A stretch of DNA of 64,000 nt from NCBI GenBank assembly GCA_021648145.1, contig JAKITI010000015.1, positions 1-64,000 of the forward strand, written 5' to 3'. The translations under genes and the position numbers were made by a program. Under the pieces are notes generated by a model. It made no database searches, was not told the origin of the DNA, and saw nothing but the letters and a program-made list of their open reading frames with translations. Positions within the stretch are counted from its first letter, which is position 1; each line of letters starts with the position of its first letter. The DNA comes from Gammaproteobacteria bacterium. Lineage in GTDB: Bacteria; Pseudomonadota; Gammaproteobacteria; JAADGQ01. Shown in pieces: positions 51,129 to 57,476 of this stretch.

Positions 51129-52640
51129 ATGTTTTTCAATGCAATGCCAATTTTTTTGCCCTTTTTGTTTGTTCTTATGTTGTTGACATCGTGTAAAAAT
51201 ACAAATAAAGACATTTTTACGAGTGGAAGCAGTGTAGGTAGTCACACTGAAGAAAATGAAAGTGATTCGACTGAGCAGGCGAGTACCACAAATGCCGGTG
51301 TTATTGATGTTTCCGCTGAGAAAAAAAGTGAACTTTCTCTACCTCCAATTAATGGTCGCCTCTCTTTTTCTCAAATGAAAAGCAGTATTGCTTCTCAATA
51401 TTATTCTGTATGGGAGGAGTATAAAGTAGGCAGCCCTACATATATCTGGGCGAATCGCTTTGTCGGCTCTGGTTGGGAGACTGCACAGATTATTGGAGTG
51501 AGTGAACAAGAAATTTCTGCTGCGCCTCAAATCGCTGTGGATAATGAGGGCAATGCCGTCGCTGTATGGATTCAAGTGAGTAAAGAAAATTCAGCGGCAA
51601 GTGAAATATGGGGGGCTTATTATGATTTGGAATCAGGCTGGAATTCTGCTGAGTATATTGCAGGTCAGCAGGAAGGTCAGTTGATTGCTGTCAATATGCC
51701 GAAAATTGTTATGAATGGTGTTGGTCGTGCAGTTGTGGCTTGGCAGCAGCAAGAAGTCATTGAAGGTATTTCTCCTTACGATATGCGTATTGATATCTGG
51801 GCACGTCCATATTCGGTGAATGCCGGTGGCTGGGGGGGTATCAAACGTATTGAAACAGATGACATAGGCAATGCAAAGAGTGTGCAGATGACCGCTTTTA
51901 ATAATGGCAGTGTGCTCGCGGTGTGGCAGCAATTTGATGGTGCTCGGGATAATATTTTAGCGAATCAGTACACACTTGATGAAGGTTGGGGTCATGCCAC
52001 GCTGATTGAAAGTGACAATAATGGGGGTATGCATAGTGTACAAATAACATCGGATCATTTGGGGAATGCAACCGTTGTGTGGGTGCAGGAAGGTATCACT
52101 AAAGTTATTTGGAGTAATCACTACACCTCTGTGAGTGGTTGGGGTATGGCGGAGCCTATAGAGTCATCGGGTAGTGATTATCTAGGCAGTGTGCGAATCG
52201 CATCTGAAGGCAGTGATGGCCACACTGTTGCCGTATGGCATAGCTCAGATGGCGTAGATTCTAATATTCTAGCGAGTCATTATACCGTTGATGAGAAATG
52301 GAGTCCTATTGAGATTGTTAATACTAAAAATAGTGATATCAAAATATCTCCACGTATTGCCTCAAATAAGGCAGGCCATAGTACAGTCCTGTGGTCTCAA
52401 CGTGATAATAGCGGCTACTCCCTTTGGAGTAATTCCCATATCTCAGATGCGGGTTGGGGTGAAGCAAAACAAGTCGAGAGTAATATTACGGGTGATTATG
52501 GCATTGCACAGAGCGATGATAGTGGAAGTTCAATGGCTATCTGGGTGCAAGACTTTCAATCGCTTAAATCCAGCTCTTTTGAGTTGAATGAATTCTGGAG
52601 AGCACCTGAAAAGGTGAGCAATACAACGCCCCATCCTTAA
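51129..52640 (+). CDS. Repeat-containing lipoprotein, probable beta-propeller
   Basis: The protein has 503 residues. The N-terminus has a hydrophobic segment ending in the lipobox LTSC, then a Ser/Glu-rich linker to about residue 75. From there blades of 55-65 residues repeat: each has AVWQ or VVWVQ followed by NILANQYTLDEGWGHATLIE or a variant, then an S/N-x-x-G turn. I count about six repeats (near 80, 140, 205, 260, 320 and 375-450), which fits a six-bladed propeller. No catalytic residues are recognised. It is probably displayed on the cell surface or in the periplasm. GAAAGGA precedes the ATG. The function is unknown. Confidence 0.75.
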   Translation: MFFNAMPIFLPFLFVLMLLTSCKNTNKDIFTSGSSVGSHTEENESDSTEQASTTNAGVIDVSAEKKSELSLPPINGRLSFSQMKSSIASQYYSVWEEYKVGSPTYIWANRFVGSGWETAQIIGVSEQEISAAPQIAVDNEGNAVAVWIQVSKENSAASEIWGAYYDLESGWNSAEYIAGQQEGQLIAVNMPKIVMNGVGRAVVAWQQQEVIEGISPYDMRIDIWARPYSVNAGGWGGIKRIETDDIGNAKSVQMTAFNNGSVLAVWQQFDGARDNILANQYTLDEGWGHATLIESDNNGGMHSVQITSDHLGNATVVWVQEGITKVIWSNHYTSVSGWGMAEPIESSGSDYLGSVRIASEGSDGHTVAVWHSSDGVDSNILASHYTVDEKWSPIEIVNTKNSDIKISPRIASNKAGHSTVLWSQRDNSGYSLWSNSHISDAGWGEAKQVESNITGDYGIAQSDDSGSSMAIWVQDFQSLKSSSFELNEFWRAPEKVSNTTPHP

Positions 52641-54602: not shown

Positions 54603-54619
54603 GAGAAAGGGTTCAGTTG

Positions 54620-55174
54620 ATGATTGAAAATGGTTGGTTAAACAGGGTTAAGCGCGTTGAATCGCCTAATTGTGATGAAAGACCCGCAGATATGCAACCT
54701 GATCTGATTGTGGTGCACGGGATCAGTTTGCCACCTAATGAATATGGTGGTTCTCATATAGAAGCACTATTTACGAATTGCCTGAATCCTGATGACCACC
54801 CTTTTTTCGCTCAGGTCTGTAATTTACGTGTTTCAGCGCATCTGTTGATTCGCCGTGACGGTTCTTTGACCCAGTTTGTTCCTTTTGATAAACGTGCTTG
54901 GCATGCAGGAGAATCCTATTATCAGGGACGTTCAAGATGTAATGATTTTTCGATTGGAATTGAACTGGAGGGTGTAGATGATTTGCCTTATGATATGGCT
55001 CAGTATCAGGTATTAGCAAAAGTAATTGGCTATCTTTTTGATACCTATGCAACATTATCAAAAGAACATATTGTTGGGCACAGTGATATTGCATCGGGTC
55101 GAAAAACAGATCCGGGCGATGCATTTGATTGGATGCTATTTAAAACGTTATGCTGTTCAAAAAAATCAAGGTGA
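54620..55174 (+). CDS. ampD: 1,6-anhydro-N-acetylmuramyl-L-alanine amidase AmpD
   Basis: AmpD is the cytoplasmic zinc amidase of cell-wall recycling that controls beta-lactamase induction through AmpR. VVHGISLPPNEYGG carries the first zinc histidine, FDKRAWHAGESYYQGRSRCN and FSIGIELEGVDDLPYD the middle of the site, and IVGHSDIASGRKTDPGDAFD the second histidine and aspartate. The ATG at 54620 gives 184 residues, the usual size. The next gene starts 15 bases downstream on the same strand but encodes an unrelated exported protein. No ampC or ampR is present in the window. Confidence 0.95.
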   Translation: MIENGWLNRVKRVESPNCDERPADMQPDLIVVHGISLPPNEYGGSHIEALFTNCLNPDDHPFFAQVCNLRVSAHLLIRRDGSLTQFVPFDKRAWHAGESYYQGRSRCNDFSIGIELEGVDDLPYDMAQYQVLAKVIGYLFDTYATLSKEHIVGHSDIASGRKTDPGDAFDWMLFKTLCCSKKSR

Positions 55175-55189
55175 ATCAGGAGTGATCGA

Positions 55190-56842
55190 GTGACATTGAA
55201 TAGAAGGTTTTTTGTTGGAATGATTGCAGTTATGACTGTGTGGGGCATGAGCACGGCACAGAGTGCAGAAGACATCAGTGTGCCGAAGGATTATCAAACG
55301 ATTCAACTAGCCGTCGACAATGCAGTGGATGGTGATACGATTATCGTTGAACCCGGAACTTATAATGAAAGTATTACGCTAAAAAGTGGTGTGACGCTCA
55401 AAGGCAGAGAGACAGCGCGAACATTCCTGCGAGCACGCGACAAAGATTTATCTATTATAACTGTAGATCGTGTCGAAAATATCAATATCCGTAATTTTAC
55501 TTTTATTGGTTTTGCGATCGAAATGACAGCAATAAAAGTCACGCAAAGTAACGATGTTGAAATTACTAATAATGTGTTTGATATCGGATCATATGCTGTT
55601 GGGGTCGATATTCCCGATGATCAAAATAATATAGATATTATTAATAATACTTTTTACGCGGCTAAAATTGCGATTGATCGAGCTTTTTCTACAGTTAAGG
55701 TTGAAAATAATATTTTTGTAAAAAACGATGAGGCAATAAGCGGAACATCTTCTGATAACATCTCGTCTAACTGTTTTTTTGCAAATAAAAACACAAATTT
55801 TGGCAGTCGTGCAACTACAGGGGAGGATCCACTGTTTGTTGACGCTGAAATCAGTGACTACAAACTTCGTGACTTTCACCTGAAAAAAGATTCCCCTTGT
55901 GAAAATAGAGGTGCTTGGGCGGGCACTTATGCAGACTCCGTCATTTTGCCAGTTAATAGTGTTCAGTTGAAAACAGTTGTTGATAGCCTAGGGGTTGGTG
56001 TTACATGGAAGGCCAATCAATCAGCGAAGGTGACAGGGTACAAGGTGTATTACGATTCAGATCGTTCTGGCGCCCCTTATGATGGTAACGATGCGGCAGG
56101 AGGCACATCACCTATTGATGTGGGTGATGTGACTAAAATTAGTTTGGATAGCTTATCACCTGGGGCGACTCAGCCTGCTGTTCCTGTGCTTATTAAAGTG
56201 GCTGGAAGTTATCAGCGCCTGACAGTTTCTTGGTCTGCTGTGGAGGGTGCAACGGGATATAAAATCTATTATGGGCTCACTGATGTGACTGCAAATGAAG
56301 AGAGCGTGGGTAACGTGACTTCATATACATTGACAGGTTTGGAGAATGGTACGGTCTATAAAGTGGCTGTTAGCGCTTTGGCAAAAACAACGTATTATGT
56401 TGCAGTGAAAGCGTATGGCAATACAAGTAATGAAAGTGCTTATTCAGATGAAGCTTCAATTGTGATTGGCGAAGGGCTTGAAAGTGAACTTTCTTCTGAA
56501 AATACAGGGATTCCTGAAAAAGTAGCTGCTTACCCCGACTTACCAGATGAAGGCTGCTTTATTGCAACGGCGGCGTACGGCTCTTATGGCACAACAGAGG
56601 TTAAAATATTACGAAATTTTCGTGACCAGTATCTTTTGACCAATAATATTGGACGTGATTTTGTTCGCTTGTATTACGCTTACAGCCCTTCATTAGCTGG
56701 CTTTGTAAGTGAGTCAGCACTGCTTAAACATACGGTAAAACTTATGCTGACCCCTGTCGTTGCAGGGAGTCTGTTTTTGTTAAGTGCGAATGATTGGCTG
56801 GAGCAATTCATGGCAAACTGGCAAGTAGAAGAACTGGAGTGA
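55190..56842 (+). CDS. Exported beta-helix/FnIII protein with CFI-box C-terminal domain
   Basis: The protein has 550 residues and a signal peptide ending AQSA. Residues 30-230 form a right-handed beta helix: IQLAVDNAVDGDTIIVEPGT, LKSGVTLKGRETA, INIRNFTFIGFAIEMTAIKV and further NxI/NxF rungs. Two fibronectin type III-like domains follow at about 260-320 and 325-430 (GYKVYYDSDRSGAPYDGND; WSAVEGATGYKIYYGLTDV). The last 100 residues start with CFIATAAYGS, the CFI-box C-terminal domain, with LRNFRDQYLLTNNIGRDFVR and a final hydrophobic helix. The start is GTG at 55190. It is four bases from an outer-membrane barrel gene, so the pair may act together at the cell surface. Confidence 0.82.
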   Translation: MTLNRRFFVGMIAVMTVWGMSTAQSAEDISVPKDYQTIQLAVDNAVDGDTIIVEPGTYNESITLKSGVTLKGRETARTFLRARDKDLSIITVDRVENINIRNFTFIGFAIEMTAIKVTQSNDVEITNNVFDIGSYAVGVDIPDDQNNIDIINNTFYAAKIAIDRAFSTVKVENNIFVKNDEAISGTSSDNISSNCFFANKNTNFGSRATTGEDPLFVDAEISDYKLRDFHLKKDSPCENRGAWAGTYADSVILPVNSVQLKTVVDSLGVGVTWKANQSAKVTGYKVYYDSDRSGAPYDGNDAAGGTSPIDVGDVTKISLDSLSPGATQPAVPVLIKVAGSYQRLTVSWSAVEGATGYKIYYGLTDVTANEESVGNVTSYTLTGLENGTVYKVAVSALAKTTYYVAVKAYGNTSNESAYSDEASIVIGEGLESELSSENTGIPEKVAAYPDLPDEGCFIATAAYGSYGTTEVKILRNFRDQYLLTNNIGRDFVRLYYAYSPSLAGFVSESALLKHTVKLMLTPVVAGSLFLLSANDWLEQFMANWQVEELE

Positions 56843-56846
56843 TGTC

Positions 56847-57476
56847 ATGAAAAAGTTGTTTATTTTCTTTTTATTAGTGACTTTTCCTGCCGTTGGTTTT
56901 TCGCAAACGAATAGCAGTATGCCTCACTGGTCTTTTGAGCTTAAAGGTGGAAACTTTGAGCCTTCATTAGATAAATGGGAAGATTTTTACGGCAAAGATA
57001 AAATGGGTCAATTTAATTTATCTCTTGGCTACAAGTTGCTGCGACAGGTCGAAGTCGGAATTGATGTGGGTTATCGACGCGATAAAGGTGAAGGTAGTTT
57101 AGCAATCAGCGGAAAATCCGGTGGTGATGTACTTTATGAAAACGCTCCACTTGGCTTGTTTGTTGTGCTGCGTGGCGTATTTAATGAAGGGCAGTGGGTG
57201 GTTCCCTATGTAGGCGGTGGCTTGAATCGTGTTTATTACAAGACGGCGATTAAGAATCAAGAATCTGTTAGTGGAACGGTGAATGGTTATACTGCACGCG
57301 CAGGCATTCAGGTTTTGCTGGATGTATTAGATAAATCAGCAGCGTATAACGCTCAAAAAGAATACGGATTGGATAATACCTATCTTGTGTTAGAAGTGCA
57401 AAAAAGCAAAGTCAAAGAGTCATCGTTGGATATTGGTGGAAAATTTTACTCTGTAGGGCTGCTATTCGAATTTTAG
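56847..57476 (+). CDS. Outer-membrane beta-barrel protein
   Basis: The protein has 209 residues with a signal peptide (IFFLLVTFPAVGFS) and a mature part of alternating strands: FELKGGNFEPSLDKWEDFYG, LSLGYKLLRQVEVGIDVGYR and LGLFVVLRGVFNEGQWVVPY, closing with YSVGLLFEF, whose C-terminal phenylalanine is the BAM recognition mark. Eight strands fit an OmpA/OmpW-size barrel. The opening resembles the myxobacterial MXAN_2562 outer-membrane family, but I cannot confirm this. It follows the CFI-box protein by four bases and is probably cotranscribed with it. The role may be anchoring or export of that protein. Confidence 0.78.
   Translation: MKKLFIFFLLVTFPAVGFSQTNSSMPHWSFELKGGNFEPSLDKWEDFYGKDKMGQFNLSLGYKLLRQVEVGIDVGYRRDKGEGSLAISGKSGGDVLYENAPLGLFVVLRGVFNEGQWVVPYVGGGLNRVYYKTAIKNQESVSGTVNGYTARAGIQVLLDVLDKSAAYNAQKEYGLDNTYLVLEVQKSKVKESSLDIGGKFYSVGLLFEF

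Follow-up and report, generated by a model that had tools for sequence, protein, structure and literature searches.

A CFI-box protein and its adjoining barrel

Within a 64,000-nucleotide stretch of gammaproteobacterial DNA, here called the window, two forward-strand genes lie four bases apart, just as a preliminary description of this DNA had put it (Table 1). The first begins with a GTG codon preceded, on inspection of the open reading frame, by an AGGAG-like ribosome site. Its product (protein 1) has the signal peptide, beta helix, two FnIII domains and CFI-box that had been read in it, but the terminal hydrophobic helix with which that reading ended is only a short hydrophobic stretch (KLMLTPVVAGSLFLL). 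The N-terminal beta helix gives a partial match to NosD (2e-8), and the parallel beta-helix model TIGR03805 matches a relative of protein 1 that is fused to its barrel. Pfam fn3 detects two stretches, the best of which covers residues 340-399, while the NCBIfam profile of the MXAN_2561 family (NF045522) matches weakly and in the FnIII part only (residues 327-396). The C-terminal region is a full-length match to the CFI_box_CTERM domain (NF041770; residues 456-524, profile positions 1-69 of 69, 95.4 bits against a cut-off of 40) and retains its invariant cysteine. This domain is predicted to adopt a small, all-helical fold (AF2, mean pLDDT 88), for which a search of the PDB returned no significant match.

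The second product (protein 2) is, as had been recognized, a small barrel ending in Phe (...GLLFEF). It matches the profile of the MXAN_2562-family barrels (NF040596) over positions 1-208 of 208 with 122.5 bits (cut-off 100), and also PF13505. A fold model of a fused homologue from Geomonas has a barrel with 8 strands, the best PDB matches of which are to the transmembrane domain of OmpA, and has, between strands 6 and 7, a helix whose flanks are conserved. Both genes recur in a second species of the genus, with 77% identity for gene 1 and 73% for gene 2, and a comparison of the two species indicates purifying selection on both (dN/dS 0.14-0.20). By these models the genome holding the window encodes one CFI-box protein and one MXAN_2562-type barrel, and the two adjoin each other.

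Table 1. Features of the gene pair and of the gene directly upstream, in window coordinates
Feature	Position	Strand	Basis
ampD-like amidase gene, ending 15 bases before gene 1	54617-55174	+	PF01510
Gene 1, exported beta-helix/FnIII/CFI-box protein, 550 aa	55190-56842	+	ORF, domain matches, sister-species orthologue
N-terminal Sec signal peptide, ~26 aa, ...STAQSA	55190-55267	+	Sequence inspection; type kept across alignment A1
Right-handed beta-helix region	55277-55909	+	Partial NosD and DUF5123 matches; TIGR03805 match in fused homologue
Two FnIII-like domains, the part common to the MXAN_2561 family	55955-56464	+	Pfam fn3, weak NF045522 match, invariant residues in A1
CFI-box-CTERM domain, invariant Cys (CFIATAAYGS...)	56555-56761	+	NF041770; predicted small, all-helical
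C-terminal tail lacking the transmembrane helix and basic cluster of most homologues	56762-56839	+	Alignment A1, tail comparison
Gene 2, MXAN_2562-family 8-stranded OmpA-type outer-membrane barrel with signal peptide, 209 aa, ending in Phe	56847-57476	+	NF040596; fold of fused homologue

The ampD-like gene possibly shares a transcript with gene 1 in this genus, and it lies outside the conserved pair, other pairs having different upstream genes. Further upstream, positions 51129-52640 encode a lipoprotein-like protein of 503 aa in which W-G...IE segments recur and for which no Pfam family exceeds the threshold; the sister species' locus has a similar gene (L020, 11591-13219).

Linkage and fusion of the barrel with tagged proteins

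The preliminary description had proposed a dedicated barrel partner, and had named a barrel rarely found beside CFI-box genes as one outcome that would speak against it. Counted from the barrel, the linkage is without exception. The barrel model identified 13 barrels in 12 of 369 gammaproteobacterial genomes, and all 13 have a CFI-box protein encoded directly upstream on the same strand; these partners align over the beta helix, the FnIII domains and the CFI-box (alignment A1, in which a contig end truncates one partner). In 6 of the 12 genomes this neighbour is the sole CFI-box gene over the cut-off, and no barrel was found in any genome of the 369-genome set that lacks a CFI-box gene. A scan of other named genomes, made with the CFI protein alignment as query, yielded further pairs from Gammaproteobacteria, Nitrospirae, Geomonas, Myxococcales and unclassified Deltaproteobacteria, and here too each barrel (13/13) directly follows, or is fused to, a tagged protein. 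Among Myxococcota the barrel is present in 182 of 237 genomes (about three quarters), nearly always once. Upstream DNA was read for 90 of these barrels, mostly better-scoring ones rather than a random sample, and two loci at contig ends were left out of the counts. At all 88 readable loci the barrel is fused to a tagged protein or immediately preceded by one, with a CFI-box at 25 and a MYXO-CTERM-like tag at 63, three of the latter being assigned by reading the sequence. The regular expression for the MYXO-like tag has a low background, since on 1000 windows of 600 bases from the same loci it matched 83, including roughly 60 true ones. Scans of viral contigs with the barrel alignment and tblastn searches of plasmids found nothing, and a 299-genome phylum sample returned only the window's own barrel.

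Taken together, the upstream DNA could be read for 114 barrels, and every one of these lies directly after a tagged protein or is fused to one, which strongly supports a dedicated partner and leads us to reject the barrel as a stand-alone protein (0 exceptions in 114 loci). The tag is a CFI-box at 51 loci. At the other 63 a homologous protein carries a MYXO-CTERM-like tag, and hence the barrel is not exclusive to CFI-box proteins.

Counting from the CFI-box, as the preliminary description had suggested, gave a different picture. The same 369 genomes have 53 places over the CFI cut-off, only 13 of which have the barrel. Of 65 other CFI genes drawn from many phyla, 28 are followed within 200 bases by a co-directional gene, and no barrel family is among the families listed, at most 25 per list, for those 28 next genes or for 150 flanking genes. 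The neighbours of other CFI genes are mixed, and the barrel is therefore rejected as a general CFI-box partner; rather, within the CFI-box proteins one subfamily, to which protein 1 belongs, has an obligate barrel partner. Among the remaining CFI genes, three from Geobacteraceae/Desulfuromonadales are followed within 40 bases by genes for similar small exported proteins (L048, 5437-6051; L085, 3981-4598; L103, 5348-5950); the one displayed matches OmpH/Skp, with a family count of three. A beta-helix/FnIII/CFI protein without a barrel (L043, 77-1258) also has its tail cut before the membrane helix, possibly a joint loss of tag helix and barrel. A CFI-box protein was also found in a Clostridium (L068), from which it follows that the box itself is not an outer-membrane signal.

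At 32 loci a single open frame encodes both the tagged protein and the barrel, an internal signal peptide preceding the latter. The barrel tree shows 16 changes of the fusion state. A hydrophobic tag helix, a net-positive loop and a second hydrophobic segment can be parsed in 30 of the 32 fusions (of the other two, the script split one at an incorrect position, and the first helix of the other falls below the threshold), and in 31 of the 32 the barrel is preceded by an AxA-like signal-peptidase site. Because the barrel has to arrive in the periplasm, this sequence pattern is most simply read as a tag helix that would cross the inner membrane with its basic tail inside, whereupon the internal signal peptide would restart export and then be cut. 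There is a published precedent in MXAN_5598, in which an internal MYXO-CTERM is followed by a barrel and an OmpA domain (PMC11980579). The fusions resemble it in joining a tagged protein to a barrel and differ in that its adhesin region and OmpA domain do not occur in these pairs. The AF2 model of a natural fusion has a pTM of 0.48; the arrangement between the domains is not predicted, and the model says nothing on their interface.

Two tags ahead of one type of barrel

The barrel of the window belongs to the MXAN_2562 family, and the FnIII part of its partner is homologous to the MXAN_2561 family. MXAN_2561 and MXAN_2562 bear adjacent numbers in Myxococcus xanthus, and the Myxococcota partners lie directly before the barrel or are fused to it. 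Protein 1 differs from MXAN_2561 in its additional beta helix, in ending with a CFI-box rather than MYXO-CTERM, and in scoring 18.8 bits with NF045522 against a cut-off of 150; lacking both the score and the MYXO-CTERM tag, it is not itself a member of that family. Certain other CFI-box proteins come closer: L062, L053 and L071 match the MYXO-CTERM-anchored NF045522 over profile positions 1-279, 128-296 and 31-279 of 304, respectively, and in each the match ends at or beside the start of the CFI-box. Many Myxococcota proteins have a motif of the type FWE-Y--GG-E-GG ahead of either tag, and three of four MYXO-like fusions tested (L152, L157, L171) have TIGR03901 above the cut-off. On a tree of 116 barrels, unrooted and built by a quick method, the tag changes at least 7 times. 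As judged from these sequences, the CFI-box and the MYXO-CTERM-like tag replace each other on homologous proteins. TraA is brought to the cell surface by its MYXO-CTERM, which myxosortase cleaves (PMC11980579). Since the CFI-box occupies the position of a tag with this known outcome, it likely serves in sorting as well, by analogy, the same chemistry not being implied.

In 32 of 36 separate CFI partners the box is followed by a transmembrane helix and a basic tail. Both are missing in the two species of the window's genus and in L026, and L021 is borderline. Of the tripartite tag of the MYXO-CTERM type, i.e. Cys motif, transmembrane helix and Arg-rich cytoplasmic tail, the window protein thus has the Cys motif only. 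A search of the window's whole genome (G000) for a CPBP-family protease (PF02517) found none, while 16 of 18 paired genomes searched and 11 of 14 control genomes have the family. A CPBP protease was hence rejected as the CFI processing enzyme. Given a genome with no such protease detected and a tag devoid of helix and basic tail, myxosortase-like processing cannot be the rule, and on this sequence evidence canonical processing of the tag in the window's genus is doubtful. What holds the protein there may instead be the barrel, the helical CFI-box or a lipidated cysteine alone; retention by the barrel itself, with the pair maintained despite the lost helix, would fit an anchor role. A separate observation concerns a CFI/barrel pair upstream of which are encoded a protein whose tail, by eye, resembles JDVT-CTERM (GCTVNPGAGFDPVMPFLLV...) and a small CPBP protease (L028, 41-1156 and 2310-2759; PF02517 match at G212:C79:2445-2729).

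A full type II GspD is encoded in the window's genome. Paired genomes as a group show no enrichment of GspD over the cut-off, which is found in 20 of 25 of them vs 17 of 25 unpaired relatives, and type II secretion was therefore rejected as a co-occurring partner. It is retained only as a possible route because of two giant CFI-box genes: one, invasin/Ig-like, lies directly before gspC in a Magnetococcales genome, with gspD next (L101, 9-8787), and the other lies directly before a gspC-like gene in an Omnitrophota genome (L084, 3-6021). They hint that, in two unrelated phyla, type II secretion may be linked to the CFI-box, a lead only, from two cases noticed after the fact.

Relation to TraA/TraB and candidate mechanisms

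The closest parallel is provided by TraA and TraB of M. xanthus, which are likewise encoded by neighbouring genes, a tagged protein followed by an outer-membrane barrel (PMC3325183, PMC12045341). The tag of TraA comprises a Cys motif, a membrane helix and a basic tail, and both proteins are needed for function (PMC3325183, PMC12045341). The two proteins associate in 1:1 complexes (PMC12045341), and TraA reaches the surface through sorting by its MYXO-CTERM (PMC11980579). The pair described here differs in lacking the lectin-like domain and Cys-rich stalk of TraA and the OmpA peptidoglycan-binding domain of TraB: the barrel matches PF13505 with no PF00691, and protein 1 has no PA14 match. It differs further in its tag, a CFI-box, and in a barrel that has a named NCBIfam family of its own. 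By analogy, we infer that the pair works like TraAB without being a member of that system.

The pair is a real, conserved and dedicated two-part envelope module, as computed from linkage without exception, repeated fusion, tag exchange and the sequence pattern of the fusions; its mechanism is drawn by analogy. The model that we consider best, and moderately probable, is a TraA/TraB-like pair in which a tag-sorted ectodomain would be held at the outer membrane by its own barrel. Protein 1 would be exported by Sec, and in most relatives the C-terminal tag would first hold the protein in the inner membrane, with the Cys motif in the periplasm, the helix in the membrane and the basic tail in the cytoplasm. 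The tagged protein would then be handed to the outer membrane, where the OmpA-type barrel from the neighbouring gene would receive and anchor it and present the beta-helix and FnIII ectodomain, much as TraA with its MYXO-CTERM is paired with the barrel TraB in Myxococcus. This model supposes that the barrel binds the ectodomain, that the ectodomain is exposed on the surface, that the protein is lipidated or cleaved at the cysteine, and that type II secretion is the route.

Alternatively, the tagged protein might stay in the inner membrane or periplasm and bind the barrel from below, tying the membranes together or templating assembly of the barrel, with no surface display. An inner-membrane anchor would be in keeping with a CFI tag that has a helix, CFI-boxes are found in a Clostridium too, which has no outer membrane, and the helix between strands 6 and 7 of the barrel model would be periplasmic if both ends are. 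However, the same barrel works with MYXO-CTERM-like tags, the best-studied bearer of which, TraA, is displayed on the surface (PMC11980579), and the window's genus keeps the pair yet has no membrane helix; we regard this bridging arrangement as rather unlikely. Simple co-inheritance of two genes whose products do not act on each other is less probable still: adjacency alone can be ancestral, but such inertia accords poorly with an association unbroken over several phyla, with the 16 changes of fusion state, and with the lack of barrels in sampled gammaproteobacterial genomes devoid of CFI-box genes. Finally, the exporter function that the preliminary description had entertained, considered here as a small two-partner secretion system, would suit the dedicated adjacent barrel and the exported beta-helix protein but is very improbable, as such systems have a 16-stranded FhaC-type barrel, POTRA domains and a TPS partner, whereas this barrel is an OmpA-size protein of 209 aa with 8 strands and no POTRA domains, neither Pfam nor NCBIfam returned a TPS domain for protein 1, and the lumen of OmpA-type 8-stranded barrels is too narrow and filled. 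The barrel may plausibly serve in display, the other half of that proposal, or in anchoring.

Returning to the model of a tag-sorted ectodomain held by its own barrel, a more general proposal, which we put forward tentatively and at somewhat less than even chances, is that the CFI-box would be a C-terminal sorting signal functionally exchangeable with MYXO-CTERM, and the MXAN_2562-type barrels dedicated outer-membrane receptors for a class of proteins bearing either tag. They would then constitute a tag-plus-barrel device for surface anchoring spread over several phyla, in which payloads and tags are swapped and the barrel stays constant.

CFI-box domains end many exported bacterial proteins. 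A literature search found no paper naming the CFI-box domain or motif, so that no sorting machinery is on record there; a search for MXAN_2561 or MXAN_2562 likewise found no paper naming either, although the two Myxococcus families had clearly been recognised already by NCBI's curators. The barrel and its partner represent a near-universal, unstudied envelope module of the Myxococcota. Moreover, as the CFI-box here stands in for MYXO-CTERM before the same barrel, and both the protease and the surface outcome of MYXO-CTERM are known, the role of the CFI-box becomes directly testable.
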